A stretch of DNA of 64,000 nucleotides, taken from the NCBI GenBank assembly GCA_030867875.1, contig JAOWCC010001609.1:1098288-1162287 (forward strand), given 5' to 3'. The notes beneath the pieces are model-generated. The model saw only the letters and a program-made list of their open reading frames with translations. It was not told the DNA's origin and did no database searches. Position 1 is the stretch's first letter; the number at the start of each line of letters is the position of its first letter. A program made the translations under genes and the position numbers. Shown here piece by piece: positions 11,189 through 52,711 of this stretch. The DNA is from Actinernus sp. WN-2022. Taxonomy: Eukaryota; Cnidaria; Anthozoa; Actiniaria; Actinernidae.

Positions 11189-11438
11189 GTCCTGTTGTTC
11201 TATCCAACAACTAGTTGGCAAGCCTGTACTGTAAATTGTTTTTCTGTCTATATTTTTGTAGTGCGGTTTGTTTGTCATTGTAATAATCTGCTGTGCGCCT
11301 TCGATGGCTGCATAAAGTATTTTAGCTCCGCTATTTTACAGCAAAATCTTCCTCTCTGACCTTCGCTGGATCAATTATATCCAAGCTATACTCGCCTAAA
11401 GCACTTTTGGATCCTTTAAGTACTTTTATCTGTCACAT

Positions 11439-26014: not shown

Positions 26015-26054
26015 TTTGCTTCACCCAGCGCCTTGCATTTCTCACACTTTGTTT

Positions 26055-27382: not shown

Positions 27383-28938
27383 GACGTGTCTAAGGAAACA
27401 ATGGCCCATGCTTCTGGTCAGAGAAGTTCATCCTATGCTACCGAGAATCATCCACAATCAGAGAAACTGGTTAATCTTGATGATAATAAGACACCATTCC
27501 GAGACCATAAAGACCATGTTCCAACCCAGATTGAGCGTACAGATCACGTTCGAATGCACTCTGAAGAGAATCCATATAATTGTAAGCAGTGTAAAAAGTG
27601 TTTCAGCCAGTCTAGTCATCTAACTGAACATGTTCGAACACACACTGAGGAGAGGCCATACAACTGTAATCAGTGTGGAAAGTGCTTCAAGCAGTCTGGT
27701 TATCTAATTCAACATGTTAAAATACACACTGGAGAGAAGCCATATAATTGTAGGCAGTGTGGAAAGTGCTTCAAGCGGCTTGGTAACCTAACTACGCATG
27801 TTCGAATACACTCTGGAGACAAGCCATATAAATGTAAGCAGTGTGGAAAGTGTTTTAGCCAGTCTATTCATCTAACTACGCATGTTCGAATACACTCTGG
27901 AGAGAAGCCATATAATTGTAAGCAGTGTGGAAAGTGCTTCAACCAGTCTAGTTCCCTAAATCAACATGTTCAAATCCACTCTGAAGAAACACCATATAAT
28001 TGTAAGCAGTGCGGAAAGTGCTTTAAGCAGTCTGGGAGCCTAATTAAACATGTTCGACTGCACTCTGGAGAGAAGCCGTATAATTGTAAGCAGTGTGGAA
28101 AGTACTTCAATCAGTCTAGTGAGCTAACTCAACATGTTCGAATACACTCTGGAGAGAAGCCATATAATTGTAAACAGTGTGGAAAGTGCTTCAAGCAGCC
28201 TGGTAACCTAACTAGGCATGTTCGAATACACTCTGGAGAGAAGCCATATAATTGTAAGCAGTGTGGAAAGTGCTTCAACCAGTCTAGTTCCCTAAATCAA
28301 CATGTTCAAATCCACTCTGGAGACAAGCCATATAAATGTAAGCAGTGTGGAAAGTGTTTTAGCCAGTCTATTCATCTAACTACGCATGTTCGAATACACT
28401 CTGGAGAGAAGCCATATAATTGTAAGCAGTGTGGAAAGTGCTTCAACCAGTCTAGTTCCCTAATTAAACATGTTCGACTGCACTCTAGAGAGAAGCCGTA
28501 TAATTGTAAGCAGTGTGGAAAGTACTTCAATCAGTCTAGTGAGCTAACTCAACATGTTCGAATACACTCTGGAGAGAAGCCATATAATTGTAAACAGTGT
28601 GGAAAGTGCTTCAAGCAGCCTGGTAACCTAACTAGGCATGTTCGAATACACTCTGGAGAGAAGCCATATAATTGTAAGCAGTGTGGAAAGTGCTTCAAGC
28701 ATTCTAGTACCCTAATTCGACATGTTCGAATTCACTCTGGAGAGGAGTCATATAATTGTAAGCAGTGTGGAAAGTGCTTCAAGCAGTCTGGGAACCTAAT
28801 TCAGCATGTTCGAAGAATCCATATAAGTGTAAGCAGTGTGGAATGTACTTCAGTTGGTCTTCTACCCTAACTAATCATGTTCGGTTACACTCTGGAAACC
28901 ACACAACCTTGAAATTCAGTATGTACCGTCAGTGTTAA
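27383..28938 (+). CDS. C2H2 zinc-finger protein exon, 15 fingers in frame
   Basis: An open exon that follows TTCGTTGCTGTAG, a good splice acceptor; the first ATG is at 27,401 in AAACAATGG. After about 60 residues without a clear domain come 15 consecutive C2H2 fingers of 28 residues ([10 protein letters not shown]...L..HVRIH) joined by H(S/T)GEKPY linkers, so it should be a nuclear DNA-binding protein. Fingers 4-8 and 10-13 are nearly identical blocks, and finger 11 is a hybrid of fingers 5 and 6, showing recent unequal exchange. After finger 15 a deletion in the linker (near 28,812) shifts the frame: the open frame stops at 28,870, while a sixteenth finger and a short tail ending at 28,938 lie in another frame. 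No KRAB, SCAN or BTB domain is visible. Specific function unknown; it may have upstream exons. Confidence 0.8.
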
Positions 28939-36620: not shown

Positions 36621-37418
36621 CGTGTTCTACATGGCTACATGTGTTGACTCGGTTTTGCTCATGTTCTGACTCGTGTGGAATTTTAGATGAGATCGACTGT
36701 ATGTGCGTACTTTCGCATCTGATTGTGTGTTTGCAATGTGCCAAACACGCAGGTGTATGAGCACATCCGCGTTAAAAAAGATACGCCGGAGTTCAAGCTG
36801 CGTGCAGCTTCTTGTTTTTATTAATGTTCAGTCCTGTAAAAAAATTGATCAGTTCTGACCTTTGTCGCTATCAGTGTGGGACGGAGATGCTGTGATCGAG
36901 CGATAAAACACGAGGCATGCATGCGCATTAAATTTATAGATTTCTTTTACACTGTTTACATCACATAATATTACCGTATAATTACCACTGTGAGAATGTG
37001 AAATGAGCAACACGTGAGACTTGGAGGCGCTACAGTTCTTTTTAACTAATTTTTAATCTTCTGATTCTTGTGAAGGAATGTTATAGACCCAAAAATACAC
37101 GAACAACGTAATACATTTATCTGCGCTGTCCGAACAGAACTAAAAACGTAAGCGAAATACAATCTCAGTTTAGGTATAAAAGGTATCGAATTATAATCTC
37201 ACGTTAGATTCCGTCAGGCGTGCTCAGATAACAAAGGTCAAAGCTCTCAGACAAGACGAGACAAGGAGATATCGATCAATGAGTCCTTGTGAGAAATCAT
37301 GTATAAATTAAGCCTAGTTAAATTGATATATAAGATATACAAATAATTAGTACCATTACTATAGATCACATAATAACTATAAGCCTCTTAAATAATCGTA
37401 GAAAAACAAATACACTTA

Positions 37419-38795
37419 ATAGGCCTTTTGCATCAATTGATCACGTGACGATTTTCCCATAGCAACGCTTTGTGTGGAGGGCAAGCCATTCTAACTTTCC
37501 TTGACAACAGAGAGAGCGTGGGAGACGCGAACGTGAAACCTCAATACTAAAAGTTCTGCCGGTTCCTTTGTTATTTGTTTTCAGCTCAAATTTATCATAA
37601 CTGTTTAGCTTTAAATCTTAAAGTTCAGTGTTAGAGGATTTTAAGAGCCGTAAGACGATCAGAAATAGCTTTCTGAAGCCAAAACCGAACCGGACTCTGC
37701 GAGTACTCGCAACATGAGACAACAGCTGGCGCCGGTAAGAAGCTGACTTCGGGAATGTACTTTTCTTCCACGCTTTAAATCGTCTTTATGTTCTAGAAAA
37801 AATATGTGACGACAGGAGAATGATGTATCTGAACGCGTTACAGGCTACAGAGATATTATAAACTGATGTACGAATAACAACCTGATATTATAGGTTGTTG
37901 AGTAGCTGGTTTTCCTATGTGACAGGTTCTCTTTTTTTTTTTAAATCACCAGCAACACTAGAGTCTGTAATCTTGAAATAAAGCCCCTCGTTACTTCGTA
38001 TTTTGGTGATCCACTGAGACCTCAATCCCATGTCTTTACCGGGGAATTTTTGTGATGAAAGGAAAGTCCATCGTTATAGCGTGAATCACCACTGCATATT
38101 TGTGGCACACAACAGTGGTAGCGCGTTCCAGTTTATACAACACCAGCGTCTCCTAGCATCTCCTCGGCTATGGTAGAGTATTAAGCGTAGTCCACACGAG
38201 CAAGTTTTCCTTGACAAGTTTTCCCTTGACAAGTTATATTTGCTCGTGTAGACGACGAAAAATGGCAAGTTTTGCCTTGACAAGTCTCTTGTTGAAGAAC
38301 TGGCGTGCCAGTTATTGAACAAGGCAACTTGTCAAGGAAAACTTGTCAAGGAAAACGTGCTCGTGTGGACTACGCATTTAATAGATACATCTCCTGTCAT
38401 CAGATAATTTTTCTAGAACATAAAAACGATTTAAAGCGAGGAAGAAAAGTACATTCCCGAAGTCAGCTCAGTTCTTACCGTCTGTTGAGGCCGCCATCAT
38501 GTTGCGAGTATTCGCAGAGTCCGGTTCGGTTTTGGCTTCAGAAAGCTATTTCTGATCGTCTTACGGCTCTTAAAATCCTCTAACACTGAACTTTACGATT
38601 TAAAGCTAAATAGTTATGATAAATTTGAGCTGAAAACAAATAACAAAGGAACCGGCAGAACTTTTAGTATTGAGGTTTCGCGTTCGCGTCTCCCACGCTC
38701 TCTCTGTTGTCAAGGAAAGTTAGAATGGCTTGCCCTCCACACAAGGCGTTGCTATGGGAAAATCGTCACGTGATCAATTGATGCAAAAGGCCTAT
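37419..38795. mobile_element. 1.4-kb palindromic element with about 420-bp arms
   Basis: From ATAGGCCTTTTGCATCAATTG the sequence returns as its complement from about 38,380 to 38,795, with only scattered mismatches over about 420 bp. TA stands on both sides (37,417-37,418 and 38,796-38,797). The centre carries a second, nested hairpin at 38,187-38,375. No protein domain. A transcript through it would form a very long duplex. Confidence 0.8.
38187..38375. mobile_element. Nested hairpin element in the palindrome centre
   Basis: GCGTAGTCCACACGAGCAAG at the left and its complement at the right, each followed by two to three copies of TTTTCCTTGACAAG. Flanks are TATTAA and TTTAATA. It lies inside the 1.4-kb palindrome and so is younger than it. 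Confidence 0.65.
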
Positions 38796-38958
38796 TAGTG
38801 AACACTCTCCATGATATGGACTTTGATGCATTATCTGTTCAATGCACTCCTCGTTTTAAGAAATATTATATATTTTATTAGCTTGTATTCCGTGTCTGCT
38901 TGAGCTTACATAAATACAGACCCGGACATTGCTGCGGACGTACGGAGAACTCTCGCAC

Positions 38959-39231: not shown

Positions 39232-39408
39232 ATTAGAGATAATATAACTGTATTTACATCATCACAAGTACCCCTGTTTGATATACACTCACATAGATAC
39301 ATACTCATGTTTGCGTACCCGTACTTCAGGGGGTTGGCGTTTGTATTTATTTGTAGTTCGTACTATGTTTCCATAATGTTACATATTGTATGTATGTGTA
39401 TACATATA

Positions 39409-39660
39409 GTAGTATAGCCGGGGTCAAAATGATACCACCTAATATTTTTCCACTCGAACAGTTTGTTTGCCCCCTCCCCACCATCTTTTTTTGGACCCTG
39501 TCGAAATTATGGTACCCAATCCCAACTTATTATCTAACGAATACCTTAGATGACCATAATTTCGACAAAGTCCAAAGAAGATATTGGGGTCGGGGGCCAA
39601 CAAACGGTTCTTCGGTGGAAAAATATTAGGCGGTATCATTTTTGACCCCGGCTATACTAC
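39409..39660. mobile_element. 252-bp TA-flanked MITE at the left edge of the virus-like island
   Basis: GTAGTATAGCCGGGGTCAAAA and its complement close the element, with TA at 39,407-39,408 and 39,661-39,662. Inverted similarity continues for about 100 bp (ATTTTTCCACTCG... and CATAATTTCGAC). It sits immediately upstream of the zinc-binding gene and could have separated that gene from its promoter. Confidence 0.75.
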
Positions 39661-39724
39661 TAGGGGTTACGACGTAGATAGAAAATTTCGATTTAGAGAA
39701 TGGAATGTATATGGTATATATCGA

Positions 39725-40000
39725 ATGATGGAGAAAGGCACTTGTAGCTGGTTGATGTTTGGGAAGGATACGAGGTGTGTAAGGAGTCTGGGTCGTTCGA
39801 AGACAGAGTACTGCGCCCAGCATAATTTCCAGATACGAGGTGGGAGCACATCACTCACTCCATGTTCGAAGTGTGGTGGTGGCTGTCTTACGAGTTACGG
39901 TCTTCGCTCGAAGTGCGGACAAACACAGCGCCATCGCCTCCATGCTTTACAACGCCGCACTAAGGAGCGCTTTGCAAAGGTGTTAGCTGACTATGGCTAA
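39725..40000 (+). CDS. Small Cys-rich zinc-binding protein
   Basis: A 91-residue basic protein with two clusters. Residues about 5-30 give C-x10-C...YCAQH, a C3H-like knuckle seen in many large-virus and transposon proteins. Residues about 44-64 give PCSKCGGGC...SKCG. It is likely to bind zinc and perhaps nucleic acid; no enzymatic role is evident. The start is one of two adjacent ATGs at 39,725 and 39,728; the frame is open upstream into the neighbouring MITE, so an earlier start was possibly lost. Its stop overlaps the ATG of the F-box/ankyrin gene by 8 bp (ATGGCTAA), a compact, virus-like arrangement. Confidence 0.55.
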   Translation: MMEKGTCSWLMFGKDTRCVRSLGRSKTEYCAQHNFQIRGGSTSLTPCSKCGGGCLTSYGLRSKCGQTQRHRLHALQRRTKERFAKVLADYG

Positions 40001-40825
40001 TATATTAGACCTCCCTCTAGAAATCTTGTCTAAGATCGTAGAGTACGCAGGCCCTACATCATTCGCAAGCATTGCTTCGACTTCGAAACGTTTTGGCGAA
40101 GCGGCATCTCCAGCACGTTACAAAAAGGTAGACCAAACGTTTCGCAGACGAGTCCTCCTATCCGGTTTCAGAGCCGTTTGTGACGATAACAAGCGAGACG
40201 ATTTGGTTAGGATTTTCGGTATTTCCACCAAGGACGCACGGAAGAACTATGCACTACGCTTTGCTTGCGAACATGGTCATCTCGACGTCGCTAAGTGGCT
40301 CGCCAAGCATTTCCAGCTCACTTTAGAGGATGTGCCTGCATAAATGGTTATCTTAACGTTGCTGAATGGCTCGCTGAGCACTTTCAGCTTACTACGAAGG
40401 ATGCACGTGCCTATGATAACTATGCGCTGCGTTATGCTTGTCGTAATGGCCACCTCGCCATCGCTAAGTGGCTCGCTGAGCATTTCCAGCTCACCATAGC
40501 GGATGCACGTGCATGTTTCAACTATGCGCCATGTTTTGCCTGCGAAAATGGCCATCTCGACGTTGCTAAGTGGCTTGCGAAGCACTTCGGCCTAACCATC
40601 CAGGACGCACGCACTATCGATAACCAAGCACTACGCTTTGCCTGCGAAAATGGTCATCTTGATATCGCTAAGTGGCTCATCGACGACTTCAACATAACCG
40701 TCAAGGACATACCAGTACCGACTCTTATGGCTACCAATTTTGCATTACTCAGTGGCTCGAAAAGCACTTCCGGGTCACCACTGTGTACGAATCTTAGTCG
40801 AAAAATAAAAGAGATAAACCTCTAG
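39993..40825 (+). pseudogene. F-box / ankyrin-like repeat protein, frameshifted
   Basis: Residues 1-40 are an F-box (LPLEILSKIVEYAGPTSFAS), which would recruit a Skp1-cullin ubiquitin ligase. They are followed by about five 33-residue ankyrin-like repeats of the type common in large DNA viruses and amoebae (ALRFACE.GHLDVAKWLAKHFQLT). A deletion near 40,335 shifts the frame inside the second repeat and introduces TAA at 40,341; a second shift near 40,740 separates the last half-repeat, whose own stop is at 40,797. Poxvirus-type F-box/ankyrin proteins steer host proteins to degradation; a similar host-directed role here is an inference. It is the second gene from the left edge and converges on the interrupted structural gene. 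Confidence 0.75.
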
Positions 40826-41160
40826 AGATCGAAAGGAGAAGGAAGGAAAAAGGTGAAAGTGGTCTCTAGAGTGTTTTTTAAATATATTTTTCTTGAGCTT
40901 CGATGCCTGCAAGCGTCTCACACACTTTTTGCAGTCGAAAGTTCTCTCCAGAGAGCTGGGGATAAATCTGCGGTGCTGTCGGAATGGTTTGAATTAAGTC
41001 GCTTGCCATTATATTATAGCTTTGCTATGTATATAACTTACTCAATCTTCAATACGTAGCGTATGGGGCTATGATGTTGCCTTTCTCGTCGCGAACTGTC
41101 AGTTGAAGGCTGCTTCGCATTGTCCCTAGATAGAGCTTGGACGGTTAGGGGGAGTAGTGA

Positions 41161-41200
41161 AGCTATAGCAAAGCTATAGCAAAGCTATAGCAAAGCTATA
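41161..41200 (+). repeat. 11-bp minisatellite, left block
   Basis: GCTATAGCAAA repeated about 3.5 times, continued in the same orientation at 41,759-41,801 on the far side of the inserted element. The unit is not a multiple of three and breaks the minus-strand structural gene. Confidence 0.85.
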
Positions 41201-41758
41201 GATCCTTTGCATGTGACGTCATCAAAATTCTAAAATCTAAACTATGAGATATATGAAGCTGTTCTTTTAATATGATTTAGATATCGGTATTCTCAGTATT
41301 CTTCGAAAAATTGACATCGATACGGTGATTTGTTTTTGAGTTACATTACTTTGAATTTTGTGACAGCCCAGGTCAGCGTGTTTCCTAAATGTCAAGGAAA
41401 TCTATATATTTCGACCAATTTCAAATTTTAGACTTGATAAACCTTTAAAAGTGATATCAAAAGTGTTTTGAAGTGAATGCTAATCATATTGATGGGGAAA
41501 ACAGCTTTATTTGTAGAGTACGTTTTTGGCCGCCATCTTGGTGTACTAAAGCTGTACACCAACATGGCCGCCGCATACTAATTACACTAAATTGTTCGAA
41601 TATTATTTGGCCGACAGCTCGGTTACGAAGTACTCTATTGCTCCAAAATTTCGGTCATTTCTATATTTTTACCTGCTCTATACACAGCATTAAAAATATT
41701 TTACTAATATAAGTTTTTTCTTGAGGCAATTTGTTTTGTGACGTCAATGCAAACGATC
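41201..41758. mobile_element. 558-bp MITE inserted in the 11-bp minisatellite
   Basis: The left end GATCCTTTGCATGTGACGTCA matches the complement of the right end (GATCGTTTGCATTGACGTCA). The same tandem repeat lies on both sides, so the exact target duplication cannot be separated from the repeat. The interior has a hairpin around CCGCCATCTTGGTGTAC / GTACACCAACATGGCCG (41,530-41,576). Confidence 0.75.
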
Positions 41759-41801
41759 AATAGCAAAGCTATAGCAAAGCTATAGCAAAGCTATAGCAAA
41801 G
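41759..41801 (+). repeat. 11-bp minisatellite, right block
   Basis: About four GCTATAGCAAA units in the same orientation as the left block. Confidence 0.85.
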
Positions 41802-42390
41802 ATATATGTTGTTTTTGCAAACCTTTCGCCTCGGATCTCTAAGCTAGCTAGGACTTTCGATGGCTTTCCCTCGAGAAGTGAGAAGCTAGAATCCACCACA
41901 TCGCAGTGGACATACACTGTGTGGATATCTTGGAGCCATATTTTATGATTACCCACTTGGATCGTCATATCATCCATCCCATGTTTATTTCCTTTGACAC
42001 CCAACAGTGTGCAGAGATTTCTGCTAAATTGAATCGGTTTCTTGACTTCTAGGATCCAAACCCTTGTTGGTAAGGTTTTCACGAATTTTATGATGCCAGC
42101 ATCGATTGCGGGTTTTAAGTATGTTTGAATGCTTGCCATATCATGATGCCCTGTAGCGATACTGTTTGGAAACCCCACACCGTTGGTATCCCACCAGAAC
42201 GAAGCTATCTTTTCTAGGTTCTACCAACTGTTCTCGAGCGTAGCCTCGATTAGTGAAATATGTCGGATTTCGAGGGGTTGATCAAAGTAGATCGTCTGGT
42301 CAGCTGCGGTACAGGTGACGTTGAGCAAAACCATTTTGTATATTGAAGGTATCAACTGTATGTATACATACGAAAGCATACTTCAATACG

Positions 42391-44063
42391 ATGCCACTCA
42401 AGAAGAACTGGTACGAGGATAGGCTTCGCGACACGAAACCCATTCCGTGGCCGACGGGACCTCCACAAGAATTCGCCCTCACAGCACAACAAAAGACCGA
42501 TATTCTCGCTGAATTCAACAAGAAGGTAGCACCACGCAATGCAAAGGCTTTCGCAGCTTTTCGGAAGAAGTATCCCAATGCCGACTATGCGAAGTTCTCT
42601 GCCCAGACGGATGCCTCCGATATACAGGACGAGTCGACCTACAAAACTAGGATTACCTTCAAAGATGGTTCCCGCGTCTGGTACATCGACGATCCACACA
42701 TTCCAACAGATGTGCAGACCAGGCTAGATACGGAATTAGGTGTGGATGGTTTCCCACATACCCTGGTGTGGGCCCAAGGTGTGAAATACCCTGTTCCAGC
42801 AATCCCCTTTACCGAAGCAGCCCACCATATCAATCTCAAGACTTTGCACATATACGCCAAACCTGTGGAATCATTCGAAGTAGGTGTCAGGGACATATTC
42901 AAAGAGACCGTTGTGACGCATAAAACAGCAAAGGAGTCTAGGAAATGGCTGGCAGCTCCATCCTTCAGTTATTGGCCTCAACAATTGAATTTAGCAACGT
43001 GGTGTGCAACTGCTGGCTGTGGAGTGTCGTTGGCCGACCCTGCTTTCAAGACATATACAACTATTGTTCGAGGGTTCCTACGATTTCACACGTATTTCAC
43101 AATACGACGAATTTTGCATGAACTTGGTGGTCCTCTACCTGGTGACTCCGCCTTCGAGCAACGTGATAACCTCTACAACAAAGCAGTTCTGGAGACCTTG
43201 TGCATCGCACACCTGATTTTCGATGGAAGGGTGGTCGTAATCACGGATTAGGAGATGTATTTCTTTACTACCCGGGTGATAGCTACAGAAACGTTCACGT
43301 AATCCGAGGCTATGACAAAGAAGGAGATATGTGGCCCAACCACAACAATTTGTTTGCAGACCAAGGAGGCAAGGTGGACATGGAAAATCTCGTATATTTT
43401 ATTCGAAATGATGAGTCCGAAGGGAAACAATACGATTGGTTTGCACCCCCAATCGGAAAAGGTCTGACAAGGGCAGGATTGGGTAGGTTGAATCGCTCAG
43501 TCGAGGCTTTCGCATATTGTTTTCTAGGTGCCCAAGCCGACATGCGCTCATCTATCATCAGTACCGAAGGTACAAGTGGTGGTGCTATTAACACTCAACT
43601 CGAGTTCAAAAATCTGCTTGAGTCATCAATCCTCGAAAACGATTTAACGAAAAGCGTAGCAAATTATCAGTTGGCTATTCAAGAAACGAAAAAGAGGCTC
43701 GACTTAGCCGTAGCTATAGGGGTGTGGTTATTGCCAAGTAATCTGGTGATCAACATCCACAGTGTTGTGGGTTATAATAACGAACTCCTGAAGGCTACGA
43801 AAGATATGCGATTGGGTGCAAACGACCATGTAAATACGGAGAGTAAGAAACCACCTCCACCACCTATGCTAGGACTTCACCCAAAGAAACATCTTCCACG
43901 TGTTGCAAAGCAAGTTGAAAAGCAACCACATGGTGCTGCAACGCACGTACCAAAGGCAAAGCCCGCCGTCGTGGTACCGAAGGTACAATCAACACGCCAC
44001 GATACTAATTTAGCTATGGCTTCGATTGCTGCAGCCGGAGCCGTATGGTGGCTATTTCACTAA
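42391..44063 (+). pseudogene. Large structural-like protein with C-terminal membrane segment, one frameshift
   Basis: The ATG at 42,391 opens a frame of about 280 codons that shifts near 43,200-43,245 into a second frame running to TAA at 44,063, about 555 residues in all. The N-terminal half is rich in aromatic residues (WPQQLNLATWC, FHTYFTIRRILHELGG). The second half has conserved-looking blocks (IRNDESEGKQYDWF, NRSVEAFAYCFLGAQ), then a Pro/Lys-rich tail and a final hydrophobic segment (NLAMASIAAAGAVWWLF). I cannot assign a named family; the size, position next to capsid genes and tail anchor suggest a virion or vertex-associated protein. It overlaps the tail of the opposite-strand membrane protein gene by 4 bp. 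Confidence 0.55.
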
Positions 44064-44344
44064 CGGCGTCGTCGTCCCGACAATTGCTCCACTACGAACA
44101 CAACTACAGCTACAATGAGCAGCCAGGTATTCTTTGCCAAGAATCCCACAACCTCGCCCGCGGTCCGAAAGAGAAAACTCGCAATCGCCCCAACCATCCC
44201 AGGTAGAATCTGCCCCAACGTTTTTCCTATTGCTTTTAACCCCTTGCCAACTCCCTTGGCTACACTAGACAGGCTCTTTGATAGCATGGAAACTATGACA
44301 CCAATCACGGTGCCCGTTGCAGCCAGAACCCCAAGCACTGTCAA
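44060..44344 (-). CDS. Gly/Ala-rich membrane-active protein with C-terminal TM segment
   Basis: About 94 codons on the minus strand. A Gly/Ala/Ser-rich amphipathic stretch (SSVAKGVGKGLKAIGK) is followed by a hydrophobic segment (WLLIVAVVVFVVEQL) and a short Arg tail. The frame has no upstream ATG (it opens at TTG), and the coiled-coil gene just upstream ends at the same place in another frame, so the two may be one gene separated by a frameshift. Proteins of this build can be virion membrane or membrane-disrupting components; that is an inference. Confidence 0.5.
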   Translation of the reverse strand: MTVLGVLAATGTVIGVIVSMLSKSLSSVAKGVGKGLKAIGKTLGQILPGMVGAIASFLFRTAGEVVGFLAKNTWLLIVAVVVFVVEQLSGRRRR

Positions 44345-44690
44345 TCCATAGCTTTGACTCTATCCTGCAGTGACATGCGCTCTTGGAGGGCTTCTTCGCG
44401 CTGATCCAGAACTGCTGATCCTCATGTAGAGCGTCGATCTCCTCACTGGCTGCTTCTCTCTCAACTGTGGTTGACGTAGGGTCTTGGAGAATCTCTTCTT
44501 CCTGTGCGATCCGTTCGTCGAGCTGTTGTTGCGCCTTTTCTACTTTCTGTGCTGCCTCTTCTGTCGTGGGACCTAGAACCCTTTTGAGGTCCGCCCCCAT
44601 CTTCATGTATCTCTCTCCTTTAACAGTGGTCAAAGGGATAGGCTGCTCTTTGCTTCCGTACGCGTGGATCCAGATTCTACCGTCGGGCAT
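44345..44690 (-). pseudogene. Coiled-coil protein, frameshifted
   Basis: It starts at ATG 44,688-44,690 with DGRIWIHAYGSKEQPIPL, then a long Glu/Gln/Ala-rich coiled coil (EEAAQKVEKAQQQLDERIA...). Near 44,392 the heptad-rich coding continues in another frame (REEALQERMSLQDRV) up to a TGA at 44,341-44,343. A single-base change therefore breaks it. Possibly part of one larger gene with its downstream neighbour. Confidence 0.5.
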
Positions 44691-45042
44691 GGTTGCTGTC
44701 TCTCCCTAACCCAGCATCCGGATAGTATTCCTTGACAGTATCAACCAGCATCTCTCTTGCCCCTTCTGAGATGTTTTGTTCGAAGACGAACCCTCGGAGG
44801 GGATCTTCCGGACCTACGATTTCATCCGAGATGTCATCATCCTGCGAGAACGAGGTTTCCTGAGTCTTCGGCCTTGCACCTTTTTCGTTATAGTCGCGAC
44901 GAGTTTCCATTTCGAATTCCTCTGGAAATCATTGATTCCATGTTTCTTCATCGAACCTATCATCGTATCCGTCATTGACTTCGCCTGGAACATTAGTCTC
45001 TTTGATTGGGTCGATGCCAACAGCCACCTTAGCAGCAGTCAT
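44677..45042 (-). pseudogene. Acidic protein of unknown function with an in-frame TGA
   Basis: ATG at 45,040-45,042; 37 codons, a TGA at 44,929-44,931, then the same frame stays open for 84 codons (blocks FEQNISEGAREMLVDTVKEY, SQDDDISDEIVGPED). The frame shifts again near its end, just before the ATG of the coiled-coil gene. The 16-bp motif at 45,061-45,076 lies 19 bp upstream. No family recognised. Confidence 0.45.
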
Positions 45043-45060
45043 ATTGAAGGCTTATTCTTC

Positions 45061-45076
45061 CACCTATAACTATATT
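45061..45076. promoter_or_regulatory. 16-bp motif between divergent viral genes (copy 1)
   Basis: CACCTATAACTATATT lies in the 38-bp gap between the divergent starts at 45,042 (minus) and 45,081 (plus). The identical 16 bp occur at 50,234-50,249, again touching a minus-strand start. It may be a shared promoter or replication element; TATAACTATA is TATA-like on both strands. Confidence 0.5.
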
Positions 45077-45080
45077 CAAT

Positions 45081-46373
45081 ATGATATCGTCAAAGCTAGA
45101 TCCAAGACAAGCACGCAGAGAGCCTCGTGGATTAAAAGCTCGACGCATTCTATATAGACGCACTTTCACACCATCATCTGCCAATCCAGGAGAGACTCTA
45201 TATGCGGAAGTCCCAACACTAGGAGAAAACATCATCCTAGTTCCGGGTAGTCTTGCACTCTTGGCTGACCTTGCATTGTCTGGTGAACACGCCAACAATC
45301 GCGTGGTGGCCAATGTCGGACGATGTCTGGTCTCGCGTAGAGTTTGTAAAATGGGAGCCGAGACAATAGAAGACATCGCTCGGCCCGATCTCCTACAGAC
45401 ATATTCTGATCTCTACCTTCCTACTCAAGAGCGAGAAGCTCGGACTCAACAAGGTATTCAATCAGAGAACGTAAACAAGCTACGCTCAGTGGCCGGTGAC
45501 AAGAATACGTTGGTTGCCGCAGACAATGCGCTCCTGGCCGCCTATGGATCGAAATATAGAATCCCACTGGACGTTGACATTCTTACACAACATGGAGCTC
45601 TGTATTCCCACGCCCTACGCGACACTATTTCATTTGAGCTGACTCTAGCATATGCTGCCGATGTGATTGTGGGGTCAGATACGACTAAAATCGGTACATA
45701 CAAGCTCAACAACATCCAGCTGGAGTATGAGGTCATTGAGAATGAAAATCTCGCCAGGCAAGCACAGGACGCATATACCACAGGCGCTGCCTTCCTGTTC
45801 AACCACGCTGTCCACTTCAAAACCGTACCTGTGAATAAAGCATCCGACACTCTGGTGTCTCAGAACGTCCCTGTCCCAAGGCGATCCTTTGCTGGGTTAC
45901 TTCTCCTATTTGTAGATCCACACACCACTGGCGCCCGAGACAGCGAGGCATTCGCCAATCCAGGTATCACAAAGGTCGAGGTAGATGTCAATGGAATTCC
46001 AAATAGTCTCTTCCCAGGAGGTATGCTACCACCAGATTTCTGGGAGGCTGCCAAGGGATGGTTCGTCACTGTTGCTCCGCAAGCGGATAGACACGGAATG
46101 ACTGCCATGACCCCTACGAAGTTTCAAAACAACAGATTCGCCGTCCTGGTTGACTGTCGCACAGCAAAGGATCCAGTTGTCCATGGCGATGGCTTGGGCC
46201 AAACAGGTAGTGGAAAAGACATCGAGATCCGTATTCATAGGAGCGGAGGCACTGGAACGATAAACATGCACATCTATGTACTGGCTGATGGTCAGCTCAC
46301 TGTATTGAATGGAGCCCTACAGAATATAACATTAAATGTTTGCAAAGCAAACGAACAATGGACGCCCTGGTAG
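45081..46373 (+). CDS. Putative double-jelly-roll major capsid protein, intact
   Basis: A 430-residue open frame from ATG 45,081 with no break. It has a basic N-terminus, then two beta-rich halves with the spacing expected of a double-jelly-roll capsid: LDVDILTQHGALYSHALRD, a YKLNNIQLEYEVI block, the loop motif SRSFAGLLLLF-like (RRSFAGLLLLFVDP), ITKVEVDVNGIPN.LFPGGM near residue 300, and an FAVLVDCRTAKD...HGDG block near residue 350. These motifs and the neighbouring packaging ATPase are typical of Polinton and adintovirus-type capsids, but I could not run a fold search. It would build the icosahedral shell. The gene ends 16 bp inside the ATPase gene. Confidence 0.65.
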   Translation: MISSKLDPRQARREPRGLKARRILYRRTFTPSSANPGETLYAEVPTLGENIILVPGSLALLADLALSGEHANNRVVANVGRCLVSRRVCKMGAETIEDIARPDLLQTYSDLYLPTQEREARTQQGIQSENVNKLRSVAGDKNTLVAADNALLAAYGSKYRIPLDVDILTQHGALYSHALRDTISFELTLAYAADVIVGSDTTKIGTYKLNNIQLEYEVIENENLARQAQDAYTTGAAFLFNHAVHFKTVPVNKASDTLVSQNVPVPRRSFAGLLLLFVDPHTTGARDSEAFANPGITKVEVDVNGIPNSLFPGGMLPPDFWEAAKGWFVTVAPQADRHGMTAMTPTKFQNNRFAVLVDCRTAKDPVVHGDGLGQTGSGKDIEIRIHRSGGTGTINMHIYVLADGQLTVLNGALQNITLNVCKANEQWTPW

Positions 46374-47017
46374 AACACATTCCATTCAATGCCTTGATAG
46401 TTGGGCCCACGAACTGTGGAAAAACGGCTTTTCTCATAGAGCAGCTTCGTGGAGCATTTCGCGGCAAGTTCGACTATATAGTATTGATATGCCCCACGTA
46501 TGCCCACAACAAAACCTATCGTGGATTTGCTCATCGAGACCCTCATTTCTTTGTTATATCACCCCCACAGGATGCCATCACTGCTGCACTGCGCTTGTGT
46601 GCCACATTTTGGACAGGAACCAATACACTGATCCTCGATGATTGTGCCGCTTCGAAGGACGTTAAAGGAAGAACTGAGCCGCTTGTAGAACTGGCATTTT
46701 CTGCTCGCCATATTGGGATTTCCGTTTGGGTGCTCTCCCAACAATTGACGAGTATCTCTAAACCCGTCCGCGAAAACGTAGCCATAGTTGTGGCCTTTCA
46801 TTTCGTGTCGGCTCCAGATGGTAAGCAACTCTTTGAGGACTATGGTGGAGGTATAGAGGTGGATGAGAAAAAGATGTTGCAATCAGAGCTCAAGGCCCAC
46901 AAGGTTGCTCGCATGTGCTTTTGTTTACGGCATCCTTTTGCAGTTGTATTAGAGCTGCCTGCACCTGAAGTATACTTCAAAGGTATACCATGGAGGACGA
47001 AATCAGTGCCCTATTAG
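46358..47017 (+). CDS. A32/FtsK-type genome-packaging ATPase, intact
   Basis: 219 residues from the ATG at 46,358, which lies inside the end of the capsid gene. The Walker A motif is GPTNCGKTAF near residue 14 and the Walker B is NTLILDDCA near residue 89; a sensor-like SQQL follows near residue 125. Size and motif order fit the small packaging ATPases of Polintons, virophages and related double-jelly-roll viruses, which pump DNA into the capsid. Upstream in-frame codons exist only with a non-ATG start. The neighbouring gene begins 28 bp before its stop. Confidence 0.8.
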   Translation: MDALVEHIPFNALIVGPTNCGKTAFLIEQLRGAFRGKFDYIVLICPTYAHNKTYRGFAHRDPHFFVISPPQDAITAALRLCATFWTGTNTLILDDCAASKDVKGRTEPLVELAFSARHIGISVWVLSQQLTSISKPVRENVAIVVAFHFVSAPDGKQLFEDYGGGIEVDEKKMLQSELKAHKVARMCFCLRHPFAVVLELPAPEVYFKGIPWRTKSVPY

Positions 47018-47502
47018 GTGTGGATGCCACATGTCCAACTATGCCTACGGCGGAGGCAACCAATTCGGCCGCCGAAACAGCAAATGATCATCGGGAAGCA
47101 CTTTCGATTTTTGCCACAACGGGCACCACAAAGGAATATCTAGGAAAACATTTCTCACTAGGAGACGTTTCTAGACTACCTGAGAAAGAAGTAGGGCGGC
47201 TACATAGAAGGTACCAGGCCGTTCTAGCCCAGCAAATAACAGGGTGGCTAGTCAATGGTGTGATGCGTCTAGCTACCCGCGCAGTTGCATACCTAGTTCC
47301 ACTAGATTCTCAAGAAGCACTTTTGAAGGACCTACAAGAAGACCACTTAATCCGCAACGAAATCAGTGCTGTGGCTGGCTTGTTGTCTCTTAAAGCAGGC
47401 CACTGTGTAGCGCTAGCTAGTGCCTTGTTCCATGTAGCTGGTCACGTAGTTGCAAGCGATCGACCAATTAAAGACCTACAGTCAACTGCTATATCAAAGT
47501 AA
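46990..47502 (+). CDS. Unknown 170-residue helical protein
   Basis: Open frame from ATG 46,990 (ATACCATGG), overlapping the ATPase by 28 bp. An Ala/Thr-rich N-terminus is followed by helical segments with hydrophobic runs (QQITGWLVNGVMRLATRAVAYLV; SLKAGHCVALASALFHVAGHVV, shortened here). No family recognised. The position in the capsid-ATPase string suggests a structural or assembly role. Confidence 0.55.
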   Translation: MEDEISALLGVDATCPTMPTAEATNSAAETANDHREALSIFATTGTTKEYLGKHFSLGDVSRLPEKEVGRLHRRYQAVLAQQITGWLVNGVMRLATRAVAYLVPLDSQEALLKDLQEDHLIRNEISAVAGLLSLKAGHCVALASALFHVAGHVVASDRPIKDLQSTAISK

Positions 47503-47515
47503 CAAGATATACAAG

Positions 47516-47689
47516 ATGGAGGAACAACCACCAATTCCAATAGACCTGTTACGTGAGCTATTGAAACATGTGGATTGGAGCGACATGGCGGAACTAAGAC
47601 TCAAGTTGGAGCACGCAAAAGAGATGATGGCATTTTTAGCACACCTGTTAGATATGTTAGATATGCTAGATATGCTAGCAAACAACTAG
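47516..47689 (+). CDS. Small 57-residue protein ending in LDM repeats
   Basis: ATG at 47,516 in AAGATGG, 14 bp after the previous stop. An acidic N-terminus (MEEQPPIPIDLLREL) and a helix end in LLDMLDMLDML, encoded by a 9-bp tandem repeat (TTAGATATG/CTAGATATG). The spacer after the stop continues with a second short tandem repeat (CTAGCAAACAT). Function unknown. Confidence 0.45.
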   Translation: MEEQPPIPIDLLRELLKHVDWSDMAELRLKLEHAKEMMAFLAHLLDMLDMLDMLANN

Positions 47690-47767
47690 CAAACATCTAG
47701 CAAACATCTAGCACACTAATTAAAGACACACAACGTAGGTACAGCATAGCTATTGCAAATCAACGAG

Positions 47768-48136
47768 ATGGCAGAAGTGGATCGGATCACTGCAGATCAA
47801 CCGAAGACTGCCCACGGAAAGACGAAAAATCCAGATAAAGTTGCTGCTGGAAAAGCACTGGCAGAACTCAATCGTCGTGGTAGAGCGGCCCTTGTTCATG
47901 AAGAGGAACGCGAAAAGGAAAATCTCCCCAAAGCGGATGCAGCTTGTCGGAACGACGGTGGCAGTATCTTAGGCATGATGTCCGTCAACACCGCACTTGC
48001 TGCCATTGGCGTAGTCGCGGCACTGGTGGGGCTATGGTTGGCTGAACGACGGCGACAGAACTACTGCACGCCTCAGGTGGAACCCCAGTCCAACCCCCAG
48101 TCTGCCGTCGTGCCAACAGTGCCAGAAATGGAGTAG
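47768..48136 (+). CDS. Small single-pass membrane protein
   Basis: 122 residues from ATG 47,768. A charged N-terminal half (HEEEREKENLPKADA) precedes one transmembrane segment (NTALAAIGVVAALVGLWLA) and a short Pro/Gln-rich tail. No family recognised. Confidence 0.5.
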   Translation: MAEVDRITADQPKTAHGKTKNPDKVAAGKALAELNRRGRAALVHEEEREKENLPKADAACRNDGGSILGMMSVNTALAAIGVVAALVGLWLAERRRQNYCTPQVEPQSNPQSAVVPTVPEME

Positions 48137-48190
48137 ATGGCACATCATTTGAAGCTAAATTCATAGCGTTTATACCAGTTGCTTCGCAAC

Positions 48191-48412
48191 ATGCCTGAGG
48201 ATAAGTTGATGCAAACATTAACCGACGCTGCAGTATTATCTGGACTTGCTGCTGGCATTGGGTTCACCGCAAAAAAGTTGATCAAGGAGTCCATGCTTAG
48301 CGATCCTTCAGCTTCAGTCTTGAATTACGTGAAGTGGACGGCTGTATTGGCTGGTAGCATCGCCTCCAAGAAATATCTCGAGGACCAAAACATTATTCCA
48401 CCAGGTGAGTAG
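48191..48412 (+). CDS. Small membrane protein with two hydrophobic segments
   Basis: 73 residues from ATG 48,191. Hydrophobic stretches AAVLSGLAAGIGFTAKKL and YVKWTAVLAGSIASKKYL, then NIIPPGE. The stop TAG is directly followed by the ATG of the next gene (TAGATG), so the two are tightly coupled. Confidence 0.55.
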   Translation: MPEDKLMQTLTDAAVLSGLAAGIGFTAKKLIKESMLSDPSASVLNYVKWTAVLAGSIASKKYLEDQNIIPPGE

Positions 48413-48850
48413 ATGGCAACCATAGCTATGATTATTGGTGGAGCCATACTCAACGCAACAGCCTTCGTAGGTGGAAGCTACCTCGCCCGGGCAATCTCCG
48501 GCAAAGGTCCTGATACACTAGCTATAGAGCGAAAAAGACACGACAAGGCTCTCGAGAAATACCAGGCAGACTGGGCCATCTTTCAAAAGCATCGTTAAAA
48601 ATTAGCTGACTGGGTTCAGAAACAAGAACGGCTGCAGCATCATGCTTCTGTGGATCTCAACAATACGAACCGCGCTCTTGTGCTATACAATACCGTACAC
48701 GTGGGACTACACCGCATACCAGCACTGCACGAACCTAGTTTCTTTGACTACTATCGGCCATCAAGTTCACAGAAGACAGGTGAGTTGGTCTATGTTGGTG
48801 GTGGAATGCTTGCCATTGGCTATGCTGCTAGTCGCTGGTTTTTTCTGTAG
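48413..48850 (+). pseudogene. Membrane protein with an in-frame TAA
   Basis: ATG 48,413, a hydrophobic N-terminus (IGGAILNATAFVGGSYLA), then a helical charged stretch interrupted by TAA at 48,596-48,598. The same frame stays open to TAG at 48,850 and ends in a second hydrophobic segment (VGGGMLAIGYAASRWFFL). A single C-to-T change in a Gln codon would explain the stop. Function unknown. Confidence 0.5.
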
Positions 48851-48899
48851 ATGGTCGTGGTTTTAGAGAGGCAGTGCCAGTCGTTAATATACCATAGGT

Positions 48900-49888
48900 A
48901 TGATGGAGGCTAAGCTATCTATTCGACTTGCGAACACCTACTATGGTCCTAAGGGATATTGGAAAGGTCATGCTGCTGTGGGTAAGCTCGCAACTGCTGC
49001 GGGAGTGTCAGAGGCTATCGCGAAGGTTTGGCTAGAAAAGCATGCCCTGTGGCAAATGTTCCTACCTAGTCCACACGAAATTCCAAGACCCCACTGGACA
49101 GTCTCAAAGCCAAACGAGGTGCACCAGGCAGATCTCCTTTTCCTACCACATGATCGAGTACGTTCGGGACGAACGTAACATGGAAGCTGTATAAGTACGC
49201 ACTTGTTGTGATCGACATAGCAAGCCGCTACAAAGAAGCAGAACCATTGACCTCGAAAGATAGTGGTGAAGTGGCTGCGGCATTCGAACAAATCTATAAG
49301 CGTGGTCCATTGACGTGGCCGAGGCTGTTACAAGTCGATCCTGGAAGGGGGTTCATGGGACGTATGTCTGAAATCTTGGAACGACATGGTACAAAGGTCA
49401 AACGAGGCGAGGTAGGCAACAACAGAGCACAAGGCTTTGTTGAACGAGCAAGGATCAGAAGCTCGATCCAGAGAGTGGGTTCAAAGGCTTCCTGCAGTCA
49501 ACAAGGCCATGAATAGTGAGGTGACTCGTTTGACAGGAAAAGAGCCTTCGAAGGCCCTCGCAGGAGTGGATATAAAAGTCCCTACGTATTCACGACCCGT
49601 TGGATTCGAAGAGAAGCGCCTGCCATTCGATGCTCTTGTTCGATATCTGTATGCGCCAGGAGAGCTGGAAGGTGGTACAAGACGTAGAGCAACTGATCCT
49701 GTGTGGAGTTTGGAGACGTATGGTATCTCGCACATGTAGTATCTTCGGAACAGCCAGTGCTGTACTATTTGGACTCCGTCCAAGGAGGAGAAAAGGCACC
49801 AAAGCGTGGGTTTGTTCGCGAAGAGCTGCAGGTAGTGCCTAGGGATACAGAGCTGCCATCAAAGAAGGTCCTAGCCCATGTTTCTTAG
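48900..49888 (+). pseudogene. Retroviral-type (rve) integrase, three frameshifts
   Basis: Four pieces in shifting frames together give a complete integrase of about 330 residues. An N-terminal helical domain (AGVSEAIAKVWLEKHALW) is followed by the catalytic core with Asp in HQADLLFLP, KYALVVIDIASRYKEAEPL, the second Asp in LLQVDPGRGF and the Glu in AQGFVERA. A C-terminal SH3-like part (GGTRRRATDPVWSL... GFVREELQVVP) ends the protein. Breaks are near 49,160, 49,440 and 49,730. This enzyme would insert the viral DNA into the host genome. Polintons and Ginger transposons carry such integrases. The catalytic residues remain, but the gene cannot be translated as one protein. Confidence 0.8.
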
Positions 49889-50233
49889 AGATAGGCTCGA
49901 AATGGGAATGGTAAGCAAGCAACTCATCGGTAAAACGTACAGTCGCATTTTTGTGAATACCACATCGTTTAATGACGTAATCTAGAGTGATTCGTGCTCC
50001 TGCACGACGTAGCACCTCGTAACTTGCTCCCACGACTTTGCTGCGTAGCACGGAGTGAGTACCAATATGATCATCGATTGCTTTGCGAACAACCTCGTGG
50101 ACTATCGTTTGGAGCAAAGCAGTAGTGTCTAGGTCGAGTTTAGCAAAAGTTGTTGCGATATGAGGAGCTATTCGGTCGGCATTCAAGTCGATATCGATTT
50201 TGTCGTCGGCATGTAATGAGCGTAGAAAGTCAT
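49839..50233 (-). CDS. Unknown helical protein at the right edge, possibly frameshifted at its start
   Basis: At least 115 residues of open frame on the minus strand (IAPHIATTFAKLDLDTTALL, SKVVGASYEVLRRAGARITL, RFTDELLAYH). The nearest ATG (50,231-50,233), directly after the 16-bp motif, is in another frame, so one base appears lost near the start. Its 3' end overlaps the end of the integrase gene by 50 bp. The all-helical, basic-acidic mix could be a DNA-binding protein, but I do not recognise a family. Confidence 0.5.
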
Positions 50234-50249
50234 CACCTATAACTATATT
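50234..50249. promoter_or_regulatory. 16-bp motif at the right edge (copy 2)
   Basis: CACCTATAACTATATT, identical to 45,061-45,076, immediately upstream of the minus-strand gene. Confidence 0.5.
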
Positions 50250-50352
50250 ATTAAAGAGAATACTATGACTTGCGAGTGTTAGCCAAATTCATTTCATTGA
50301 TAAAATTCCCAAAAAATTGAACTGGCTATTTTCTGAGGGTACAGAAATATAT

Positions 50353-50755
50353 TTATGACGTCATAATGACGTATACAAAAAATTGGGCTTCAATTATGAG
50401 CTGTTATACTCAAAAAATCAAAATTCTTAAAAGAACACGTTGTTATTACTAAAGAGCTCTATTATTGTGCAAAATATGATGCACCAGTATTTCAAATTGT
50501 AAAAGTTAAAACAAGCGACATTTTCATAAATGGTTTTATGCTATTTATTTCCCGCCAATTTTTGGCGGGAAAATTATCAAAATTCAAACTTTAATAACTT
50601 TTGTTTACTTCAACCGATCGAGAACGGGTTTTCGATAATTTCATTCACATGAACAAGAGAATATAAAAAGATATAATAAAACGTTTTTAGAGGTAATAAA
50701 AAATTATAAGAAACCTATTAGAAAAGGATGTATGACGTCATTGTGACGTCATAAT
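50353..50755. mobile_element. AT-rich MITE with TGACGTCA ends
   Basis: The left end ATGACGTCATAATGACGTATAC matches the complement of the right end (ATGACGTCACAATGACGTCATAC), shown here only in part. The interior is AT-rich with a CCCGCCAATTTTTGGCGGG hairpin at about 50,550. No gene. Confidence 0.55.
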
Positions 50756-51340
50756 GATGGCTATATTAGCTTAACTTATCAGACTATGTTTTGTTTACAC
50801 TTCTTTATACACCTACCAAAATTCATTCTTCTATGTCGAAAACGTTTAAATATATATAAAACCCGCCGTTTTTACGATCATTTGTGCCCGGCGTGATAGG
50901 TCCTGCATGTGCTTCATTGCGCAGGCATGTTAGTAGTTTATCATTTTATGGGTGTCTATTTGCGCTACTACGAGCTTTGATTACCTGTTTTTGGTATAGG
51001 ACCTGCGTATAGTCATTACTCAAAAGTAACCTATATGCACTGGTATGTTACCAGTCCCCGTGAACTGTCATGTTTATCTAGGTAGACCAAGGGAGTCGTC
51101 ATGTATAGTACGTAGGCCCTGCGTGTAGTTTTGAATAAGTATTTAGGTTGTGAACTGTCGCGACGTCTGAGATAAGCCGCGTCGGCTGATATGAGTCAGT
51201 AAGTAGACTCGGTGCATTATCATTGCAGGCGGTATGTAAACCATATGCCATCTCGTATCCTACGTAGGTGTGCAGTCAAGAATCAGTCAGTAGACTGGAG
51301 ACATCCTGAGTATTTCCGCAGAAGTACTTATAAAAGTCAT
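50756..51340. other. Unassigned region before the recombinase
   Basis: No supported gene. Loose repeats of GAGTCAGTAAGTAGACTC-like words (near 51,200 and 51,285) anticipate the tandem array that follows. Confidence 0.4.
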
Positions 51341-51649: not shown

Positions 51650-52711
51650 ATACCATGTATCCTTCTAATCCGTATTTATTTTATCGTCACAGATACGATG
51701 TCTTTAAGAGCGGGATTTGGTCAGAAGCGGATTCCATAACTAATGTAGATCTGAGGGCTACGATGGCTAAACTTCAAACCAGTTATCGCAGCTAAAGCGG
51801 GGGGAACAACTGATGGCTACCGAAGGGCTTTTCAGAGGTGGTAATCTTTCGCGAATAACACAGATGGAATAGAATGTTTTCCAGCCAAGCCACTGCATGT
51901 CGCTCTGTATTTACAGACACTTATGGAAAGTTCAAACTCCTCAGCTTCCGTAGAAGCAGCCTTCTATGCCATCCAATAATGGGCGCACAATCTAGCTGGA
52001 ATTCCCTCCCCCACAGCTCATGCCACTGTTATAGCAGTCAAAGCCGCAGCCAAGCGGATCTGTGGAAAAGTAGGAAGTCACAAAAAGGAACCCGTTTCAC
52101 CGACTATGATTAAAACTGTAGTAGCTACGGCTAATTTAGACAATCTTTTAGAATTACGGAATGTATGTATAATTGTTCTTTCTTTTGCTGGATTTCTTAG
52201 AATAGATGAGACTATAAATATCAAGAGAAATAATATACTTATCAATGAAGAATATGTAAGCATCGGACTAGAGCGCAGCAAAACGGATCAGAATCGTAAG
52301 GGCAACGAAGTGGTTGTTTCTAGAATCATAGGTTCCACAGCTTGCCCTGTTTCCATCTTAGAGGTTTATTTAGCTCTACCTGGTATTAGTAATCCTTTAT
52401 CTTCCGAGTTTATTTTCAGGCCTGTTTCCAAAATCCGGGCTGGTTATAAATTGGTTAAAGTTAATAAGTCCATAAGTTATTCTACTATCAGAGAGGCATT
52501 TAAGTCATCCTTTAAGGATATTGTTACATACATTAACTTATATAGTACTCACTCCCTGAGAGCGGGTGGAGCCAGAGCAGCCGCTAGTGCGGGTATAGCG
52601 GATCGGGCGTTTCAGAGACACGGCAGATGGAAGTCTGTGTCTGCTAAAGATGGCTATGTTAAGGATGAGCTGAACGTGCGCTTAGATGTCTCCAAGAATC
52701 TCGGTCTTTGA
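51650..52711 (+). pseudogene. Tyrosine recombinase (Crypton/DIRS-like), catalytic domain open
   Basis: The catalytic domain is open from 52,106 to the stop at 52,711 and shows the tyrosine-recombinase set: Arg in FAGFLRIDET, Lys in ERSKTDQNRKG, H..R in STHSLRAGG, His in QRHGRWKS and the nucleophile Tyr in KDGYVKD. Upstream the same frame continues through an in-frame TAA (51,977) and an earlier TAG into a SAM-like core-binding domain (SLYLQTLMESSNSSASVEAAF, shortened), so the N-terminal half is damaged. Such enzymes mobilise Cryptons and DIRS/Ngaro retroelements; no reverse transcriptase is seen nearby. Expression from 52,106 alone would give a catalytic fragment. Confidence 0.75.

Follow-up and report, generated by a model that had tools for sequence, protein, structure and literature searches.

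A Polinton variant with unusual ends, exchangeable replicases and a likely TFIIB-like gene in the genome of Actinernus sp. WN-2022

Polintons, also called Mavericks (class Polintoviricetes), and the animal-associated adintoviruses (alpha and beta) are the described systems closest to an element found in Actinernus sp. WN-2022 (Cnidaria; Anthozoa; Actiniaria), within a stretch of 64,000 nucleotides (contig JAOWCC010001609.1 of assembly GCA_030867875.1, positions 1,098,288 to 1,162,287, forward strand) that we refer to as the window. According to the accessible parts of the papers cited throughout this text, vertebrate Mavericks have (AGT)2 ends and 6-bp target duplications (PMC8097293), a protease is identifiable in 74% of Polintons (PMC4028283), and adintoviruses are defined by BLAST-recognisable hexons, an OTU-bearing PolB polymerase and a chromodomain integrase (PMC11071296). 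Cnidarian capsid genes lying outside the main Maverick-Polinton cluster are reported and a divergent animal group exists (PMC10120064), whose link to the window element is a lead only. Cryptophyte Polinton-like viruses are described as having exchanged their replication genes while keeping a conserved capsid block (PMC12220804), and the same has been described more generally (PMC11071308).

The original prediction had placed at 39661..50250 of the window a compact provirus with a capsid-like protein, a packaging ATPase and an rve integrase and, seeing neither PolB nor protease, had proposed either a polymerase-less lineage or a copy that had lost one end. Our analysis indicates that the element is almost certainly an old, truncated and mutated Polinton of the kind that carries the replicase termed type A below, and that its family is a variant form of Polinton, set apart by unusual ends, by replicases that can be exchanged and by a probable TFIIB-like gene. 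The family shares with Polintons PolB, an rve integrase, an A32-type ATPase and a capsid-like gene, a length of 15.5-16.7 kb, ends starting AGTAGT, and target duplications. It differs from them in that the type-A and type-B ends examined are themselves hairpins of ~250-310 bp, and in its TFIIB-like gene, its lack of a recognisable protease, its 5-bp duplications and a capsid-like protein with no detectable PDB or Pfam relative. With adintoviruses it has in common the association with animals and the combination of PolB, rve integrase, and capsid and packaging genes; unlike in adintoviruses, no chromodomain was found in the open integrase frame of relative c6 (Pfam; only rve at E up to 0.1).

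Relatives were sought in the host assembly (1.39 Gb, contigs up to 190 Mb, the window lying at a contig end) with the 45,081-46,370 capsid-like product, which gave 98 scored matches including itself at 77-100% identity, 50 of them free of internal stops (counted from rows). These 98 were scored among 4,994 first-look candidates, most of which went unscored. From the other 97, ten (ranks 2-8, 14, 15 and 19; hereafter c1 to c10) were read at length, in two adjacent 10-kb stretches each around the capsid gene. One of them, c1 (contig C1380), is a duplicate of the window locus or its second haplotype, being 99.1-99.4% identical over 17 kb with flanks and break alike. Twenty further copies, hand-picked from ranks 10-98 and denser at the top, were read over a 2.5-kb stretch that lies 5.0-7.5 kb away from the start of the capsid gene; together with c2-c10 they make up a replicase census of 29 copies, in which the replicase of those 20 is tied to the element by position only, without full ends read. 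A search for full copies, as the original prediction had advised, was productive in the host genome: c3, c8 and c9 have both ends, PolB and target duplications, and measure 16,659, 15,510 and 16,378 bp, respectively.

Comparison with these relatives settles the extent of the window element. Its left terminus is at 39,408, 39,661 being the inner edge of a terminal hairpin, and its homology to c3, c8 and c9 reaches 50,237 and then stops, so both predicted limits had to be moved. At this break (50237..50237) the three relatives go on for 4.9-5.4 kb with the remainder of the TFIIB-like gene, PolB and a right terminal hairpin. Copies c3, c6, c8 and c9 have blocks of 3.4-5.4 kb in common, 84-88% alike, that extend past the equivalent point; c3 and c8 share a 5.4-kb block at 84% past it, and c6 and c9 behave likewise. 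The window element stops inside the TFIIB-like gene, of which ~123 open C-terminal codons are kept (49869..50237, minus strand; 79% identical to relative protein P0002), and its end motif occurs nowhere in the 64 kb outside the left hairpin, so that it has the left terminal inverted repeat only. The truncation, the PolB of the relatives, the ends, the target duplications and the frame breaks are direct observations. There is thus little room for doubt that the window holds a copy with 4.9-5.4 kb lost at one end, as the second of the two proposals had it, and not a polymerase-less lineage. The polymerase is missing because that part of the element is missing, and the integrase stands at the right edge because of the truncation. 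The striking feature of the locus is accounted for by an ordinary explanation.

No polymerase or protease was found among 20 window frames scanned against Pfam, and tblastn of the three replicase types described below against the window gave no match at E 1e-5; the absence of both noted by the original prediction stands for the window, and that of the polymerase fails as a trait of the lineage. A real polymerase-less lineage, copied by the host or a helper and ending at 50,237, would fit this lack of any match to the relatives' polymerases, and would also fit the three of 29 other copies (c5, L044 and L046) in which no replicase match was found in the stretches examined. We nevertheless regard it as extremely improbable: a replicase match lies near the capsid block in 26 of the 29, the window element ends inside a gene with the second terminal motif absent, and among the ten copies read at length its break recurs only in c1, the 99% duplicate. 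It is also very improbable that the polymerase end was moved beyond the window's end by a large insertion or rearrangement instead of being lost. Repeat-like sequence does follow the break (50412-50895), also found left of c2, and 13.8 kb of contig remain after it; those 13.8 kb hold no PolB match.

Returning to the truncated Polinton, its fuller type-A relatives give the order of the intact element: a hairpin, a Cys-rich open reading frame (ORF), an F-box/ankyrin gene, minus-strand genes, a 544-codon gene, the capsid-like gene and the ATPase, followed by small proteins, the integrase, the TFIIB-like gene and PolB on the minus strand, and a second hairpin. With the same gene order as the window, they thus carry PolB between the integrase and the right repeat. 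In c6 PolB is a 1,267-codon open minus-strand frame (L020:4789-8589; DNA_pol_B_2 1.3e-10, Pfam) with DFEAY, YDANALYL, GNSAYG and MDTDSA, which we take to be exonuclease and polymerase motifs, and about 450 residues ahead of the polymerase motifs. In the inferred life cycle, PolB would copy the linear element, the integrase would insert it and leave a 5-bp duplication, the capsid-like protein and ATPase would package it, and the TFIIB-like protein may direct host RNA polymerase II to element promoters. The window copy has lost all of the element beyond 50,237 on the right and has decayed through frameshifts.

Several observations weigh against this account. PolB is damaged in all four long type-A copies: in c3 and c9 it lies in several frames, in c8 it has one frame change and one stop, and in c6 it is open, with one stretch out of frame and some residues missing relative to c3, c8 and c9. 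No protease domain was found in the scanned ORFs of c3, c4, c6 and c8 (Pfam), so that full-length relatives supply the PolB but not the protease that the original prediction named as evidence against a separate lineage. The target duplications of c3, c8, c9 and c4 are 5 bp long, against 6 bp in vertebrate Mavericks (PMC8097293). Finally, the double jelly roll expected of the capsid-like protein was not confirmed, with an AlphaFold model from six close sequences at a predicted local distance difference test score (pLDDT) of 32 and no PDB sequence match; the model is poor because the sequences are too few and too similar. As to the protease, the 74% figure (PMC4028283) means that it is not obligatory, and its absence therefore defines nothing. 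A protease hidden in the 544-codon gene or the other conserved genes was considered and rejected, since no protease family appeared at E up to 1.

The ends of these elements are unusual. Copies c3, c8 and c9 start AGTAGTATAG and end CTATACTACT, as does the 254-bp left terminus of the window (39408..39661), in terminal inverted repeats with AG/AGT ends, and are flanked by the perfect 5-bp target duplications CTTTA, CACCC and CATTG. DNA folding of the window's terminal 254 nt gave -91.1 kcal/mol (z -20.3, equalled by 0 of 200 shuffles), and the left ends of c9 and of type-B c4 gave z of -19.9 and -20.95; the first 250 nt at the left end of type-C c10 gave z -0.96, a value that 34 of 200 shuffles equalled or bettered, and form no hairpin. 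The remaining ends were judged by RNA-parameter folding without shuffles. In eight type-A ends 75-89% of bases are paired over 252-311 nt, and in the four ends of type-B c4 and c7 79-89% over 246-264 nt, giving a hairpin of 246-311 bp at 12 of the 12 type-A and type-B ends found. An exact 10-base motif served to locate type-A ends and an inverted-repeat search to locate those of type B, so that ends lacking these features would be missed; neither the ends of c2 or c5 nor the left end of c6 could be located in this way. A separate miniature inverted-repeat transposable element beside each copy is disfavoured as the source of the hairpin, as the hairpin stands at both ends of c3, c8 and c9 and directly abuts their target duplications.

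The arms appear to have stayed complementary as the sequences diverged. In an alignment of eight type-A ends, which come from five loci and are not independent, 18 of 82 predicted pairs have two-sided changes (shuffle mean 9.7, 0 of 500 reaching 18; slid structures 1-6), and 91.8% of pairing cells pair, compared with 37.5-50.3% in slid structures. Two results count against compensating changes in the hairpin: in RNAalifold the covariation term comes out slightly unfavourable (+1.78), and 57 of 500 shuffles reach the observed number of further pair types. Within one copy, the left end is 94.8% (c3), 96.1% (c9) and 86% (c8) like the right, and ends of different copies are mostly 63-82% alike over the main blocks; because ends are more alike within copies than between them, the two ends of a copy seem to have been evened out. 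Type-B ends have a different sequence, also starting (A/T)GTAG, and their left and right ends are 94.6% (c4) and 94.1% (c7) alike; the target duplication of c4 is 5 bp long with a single end base altered, and no perfect target duplication was found at the c7 ends. Those of c10 are ordinary inverted repeats, 96% over 153 bp, with a 6-bp duplication, AGACAG, whose placement is ambiguous by a few bases. At the left end of c9 (L025 4304-5316) the hairpin is followed by a frame resembling the N-terminus of PolB, and the inverted repeat may therefore extend into that gene. We met no report of hairpin or palindromic Polinton ends in the literature searched, which was largely without subscription papers and included the accessible parts of PMC8097293, PMC10120064, PMC6431247 and PMC12220804.

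The replicases of the 29 copies fall into three types. Type-A PolB is present in nine (c3, c6, c8, c9, L034-L037 and L039) and type-B PolB, 22-28% identical to type A, in 13 (c2, c4, c7, L033, L038, L040, L041, L045 and L047-L051), five of which have an Endonuclease_7-like finger, two above the Pfam cut-off. Type C, a superfamily-1 helicase, is found in four (c10, L032, L042 and L043, the last 38-41% like the others). Type-C relatives (c10 in L028, L032 and L042/L052), which have a helicase-like frame preceded by polymerase-like motifs (by eye), resemble Polinton-like viruses and Tlr1 with a PolB-superfamily-1-helicase protein, but unlike those their capsid-like proteins are still 80-85% identical to that of the window. 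In L042 the helicase-like frame lies beside an open rve integrase; this integrase (57.5% to c6) and the helicase frame occupy adjoining stretches (L042/L053).

The change of replicase coincides with a sharp junction. In all eight pairings of a type-A copy (c3, c6, c8, c9) with a type-B copy (c4, c7), DNA homology ends at the 3' end of the integrase gene, whereas in all six type-A pairs it continues into PolB. In the type-B pair c4/c7 it continues at 94%, the high identity beginning inside the integrase and blocks further left being 77-85% identical, a step that points to recombination. Capsid genes of different replicase types are 83-92% identical in DNA with the duplicate excluded, the closest across types being those of c2 (type B) and c3 (type A) at 92%. 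The capsid tree needs three changes of replicase type (minimum two), a number as low in 63 of 200 shuffles, and its branching is weakly supported; exchanges are therefore not countable on it. Given the descriptions in the accessible parts of PMC12220804 and PMC11071308, the principle of replicase exchange is already known; for the closeness of the exchange seen here and its link to hairpin ends, no report was met in the literature searched, as far as its accessible parts go. We tentatively suggest, as a possibility that falls short of being probable, that these elements combine parvovirus-like hairpin ends, whose arms stay complementary despite divergence, with two exchangeable blocks (capsid to integrase, and replicase plus ends), at least three replication systems thereby spreading related capsid genes in one host genome.

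Between the integrase and PolB of type-A relatives lies a minus-strand frame (L023:4212-5105, 298 codons, start uncertain) with a CPxCxC...CPIC zinc-ribbon motif, seen by eye. It is very likely related to TFIIB. When a profile of its copies was run against the PDB, six of the seven hits with E up to 1 were TFIIB (best 0.015), and the zinc ribbon is the best modelled part of the protein (block means 73 and 65, pLDDT 41 overall). The gene recurs beside type-A PolB only, in c3, c8, c9, L035 and L036 besides the window and its duplicate; type-A c6 is without it. A chance match to an unrelated protein, which we consider unlikely, would be in keeping with the weak single matches (Pfam 0.002 and 5.9e-4 in two copies, below the curated cut-off; single sequence against the PDB, E 0.32), the low overall pLDDT and a Foldseek search of the model in which no match was significant (best E 0.29), but not with the PDB profile hits, the modelled zinc ribbon or the recurrence in five type-A copies. 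The first Foldseek row corresponds to chain M in a complex of RNA polymerase II, presumably TFIIB, and was not used as proof. TFIIB has been described as a giant-virus marker in the accessible part of PMC12638062.

The 430-aa capsid-like protein of the window (45081..46373, plus strand) is encoded by a conserved gene, as seen in the 98 scored matches, the alignment and the ratio of nonsynonymous to synonymous substitution rates (dN/dS), computed pairwise with gap and stop codons dropped; its predicted fold did not gain confirmation. The dN/dS is 0.15-0.30 for the capsid-like gene (10 pairs of five copies), which is under purifying selection, 0.16-0.26 for the ATPase (six pairs), 0.24-0.39 for the TFIIB-like gene and 0.16-0.32 for the PolB part (three pairs each). 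With values of 0.15-0.39 in four genes, the copies descend from lineages with working proteins. The capsid-like product had no convincing Pfam or PDB relative; in IMG/VR none was found for it, the ATPase or PolB by a scan that needs exact short peptide matches, and the ATPase matched no phage records. The predicted packaging ATPase was borne out: the 46,358-47,014 product matches Pox_A32 at 2.5e-10, and the A32/FtsK-type frame (46358..47017, plus strand) is open and aligns with its relatives. In L044 a second, divergent capsid-like frame (1187-2494, plus strand) lies 6 kb from the capsid match, so elements of this Polinton family sit close together at that locus.

Within the window copy, the left hairpin adjoins a small Cys-rich ORF (39725..40000, plus strand; tblastn 80% to L020:8599-8937:-), a similar ORF standing inverted at the right end of c6. 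An F-box and ankyrin-repeat gene follows (39993..40822, plus strand; Ank_2 1.5e-17) in two frames, 39993-40343 and 40295-40822, the F-box match being 1.6e-4 in c3 (Pfam). A minus-strand gene is in pieces (41801..42337, and another fragment at 40884-41012; by tblastn 37% and 74% to L024:2593-3618); it has 342 codons in c8, its best Pfam match is at chance level (0.13), and its position suits a candidate minor capsid (penton) protein. At 41144-41817, two 11-bp tandem arrays surround ~540 bp that several relatives lack here, likely an insertion or an array-mediated duplication. Some ORFs of the window copy are fragments of longer genes: the 286- and 244-aa products (42391-43251 and 43329-44063, plus strand, within 42391..44063; tblastn 64% and 79%, two frames), of no recognised family, form a single 544-codon frame in c8, and the minus-strand ORFs of a membrane/coiled-coil gene (44060..44910), three frames in the window, are united in several relatives as a single frame of about 270-320 codons. 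Compared with the window order, c2 (L011/L012) has its central capsid block in the opposite orientation with respect to the integrase and left-hand genes.

To the right of the ATPase lie an ORF of 170 aa and no recognised family, present in relatives too (46990..47502, plus strand, from the ORF list), a 122-aa ORF with a C-terminal hydrophobic segment by eye (47768..48136, plus strand, ORF list) and a conserved small gene that has 143 codons in c6 (48413..48820, plus strand; tblastn 87%). The integrase (48888..49864, plus strand) belongs to the predicted rve family (3.3e-8 at 49,154-49,513; 3.8e-8 for c6, Pfam) and has the D, D, E residues, but its frame is not intact: it is in four pieces, compared with an open 380-codon relative, with the three residues split between two reading frames. 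Relative to other copies, the window has its integrase in four frame pieces, its 544-codon gene in two, its membrane gene in three and its F-box/ankyrin gene in two, and its capsid frame overruns the relatives' end by about 12 residues.

Other sequence in the window includes, immediately left of the Polinton end, a foldback-like element (37417-38797) with 301-bp inverted repeat arms that are 98% complementary; the 779 bp separating them contain smaller inverted repeats. At 51980-52711 (plus strand), 1.7 kb past the break, a tyrosine-recombinase-like open frame (Phage_integrase 3.4e-7) with no match in the flanks read is probably another mobile element. Frames assigned by eye are a 1,304-codon endonuclease- and reverse-transcriptase-like frame of the LINE (long interspersed nuclear element) type (11400-15314, plus strand), a THAP/DDE-transposase-like frame (24524-26020, minus strand) and a 495-codon C2H2 zinc-finger array (27383-28870, plus strand). 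An Rfam scan of the window gave no family at gathering score.

Collectively, these comparisons remove a false 'polymerase-less' lineage, and argue that copies in eukaryotic genomes should be assessed against relatives that are more complete. The additional findings carry more weight. At the sharp junction behind the integrase gene, the frequency of replicase swapping can be measured while the capsid genes stay almost the same. The initiation of Polinton replication is touched by the hairpin ends and their compensating changes, which, if true, would point to self-primed or closed-end replication intermediates besides, or instead of, simple protein priming. If the TFIIB-like gene is confirmed, some Polintons would steer host transcription initiation directly.

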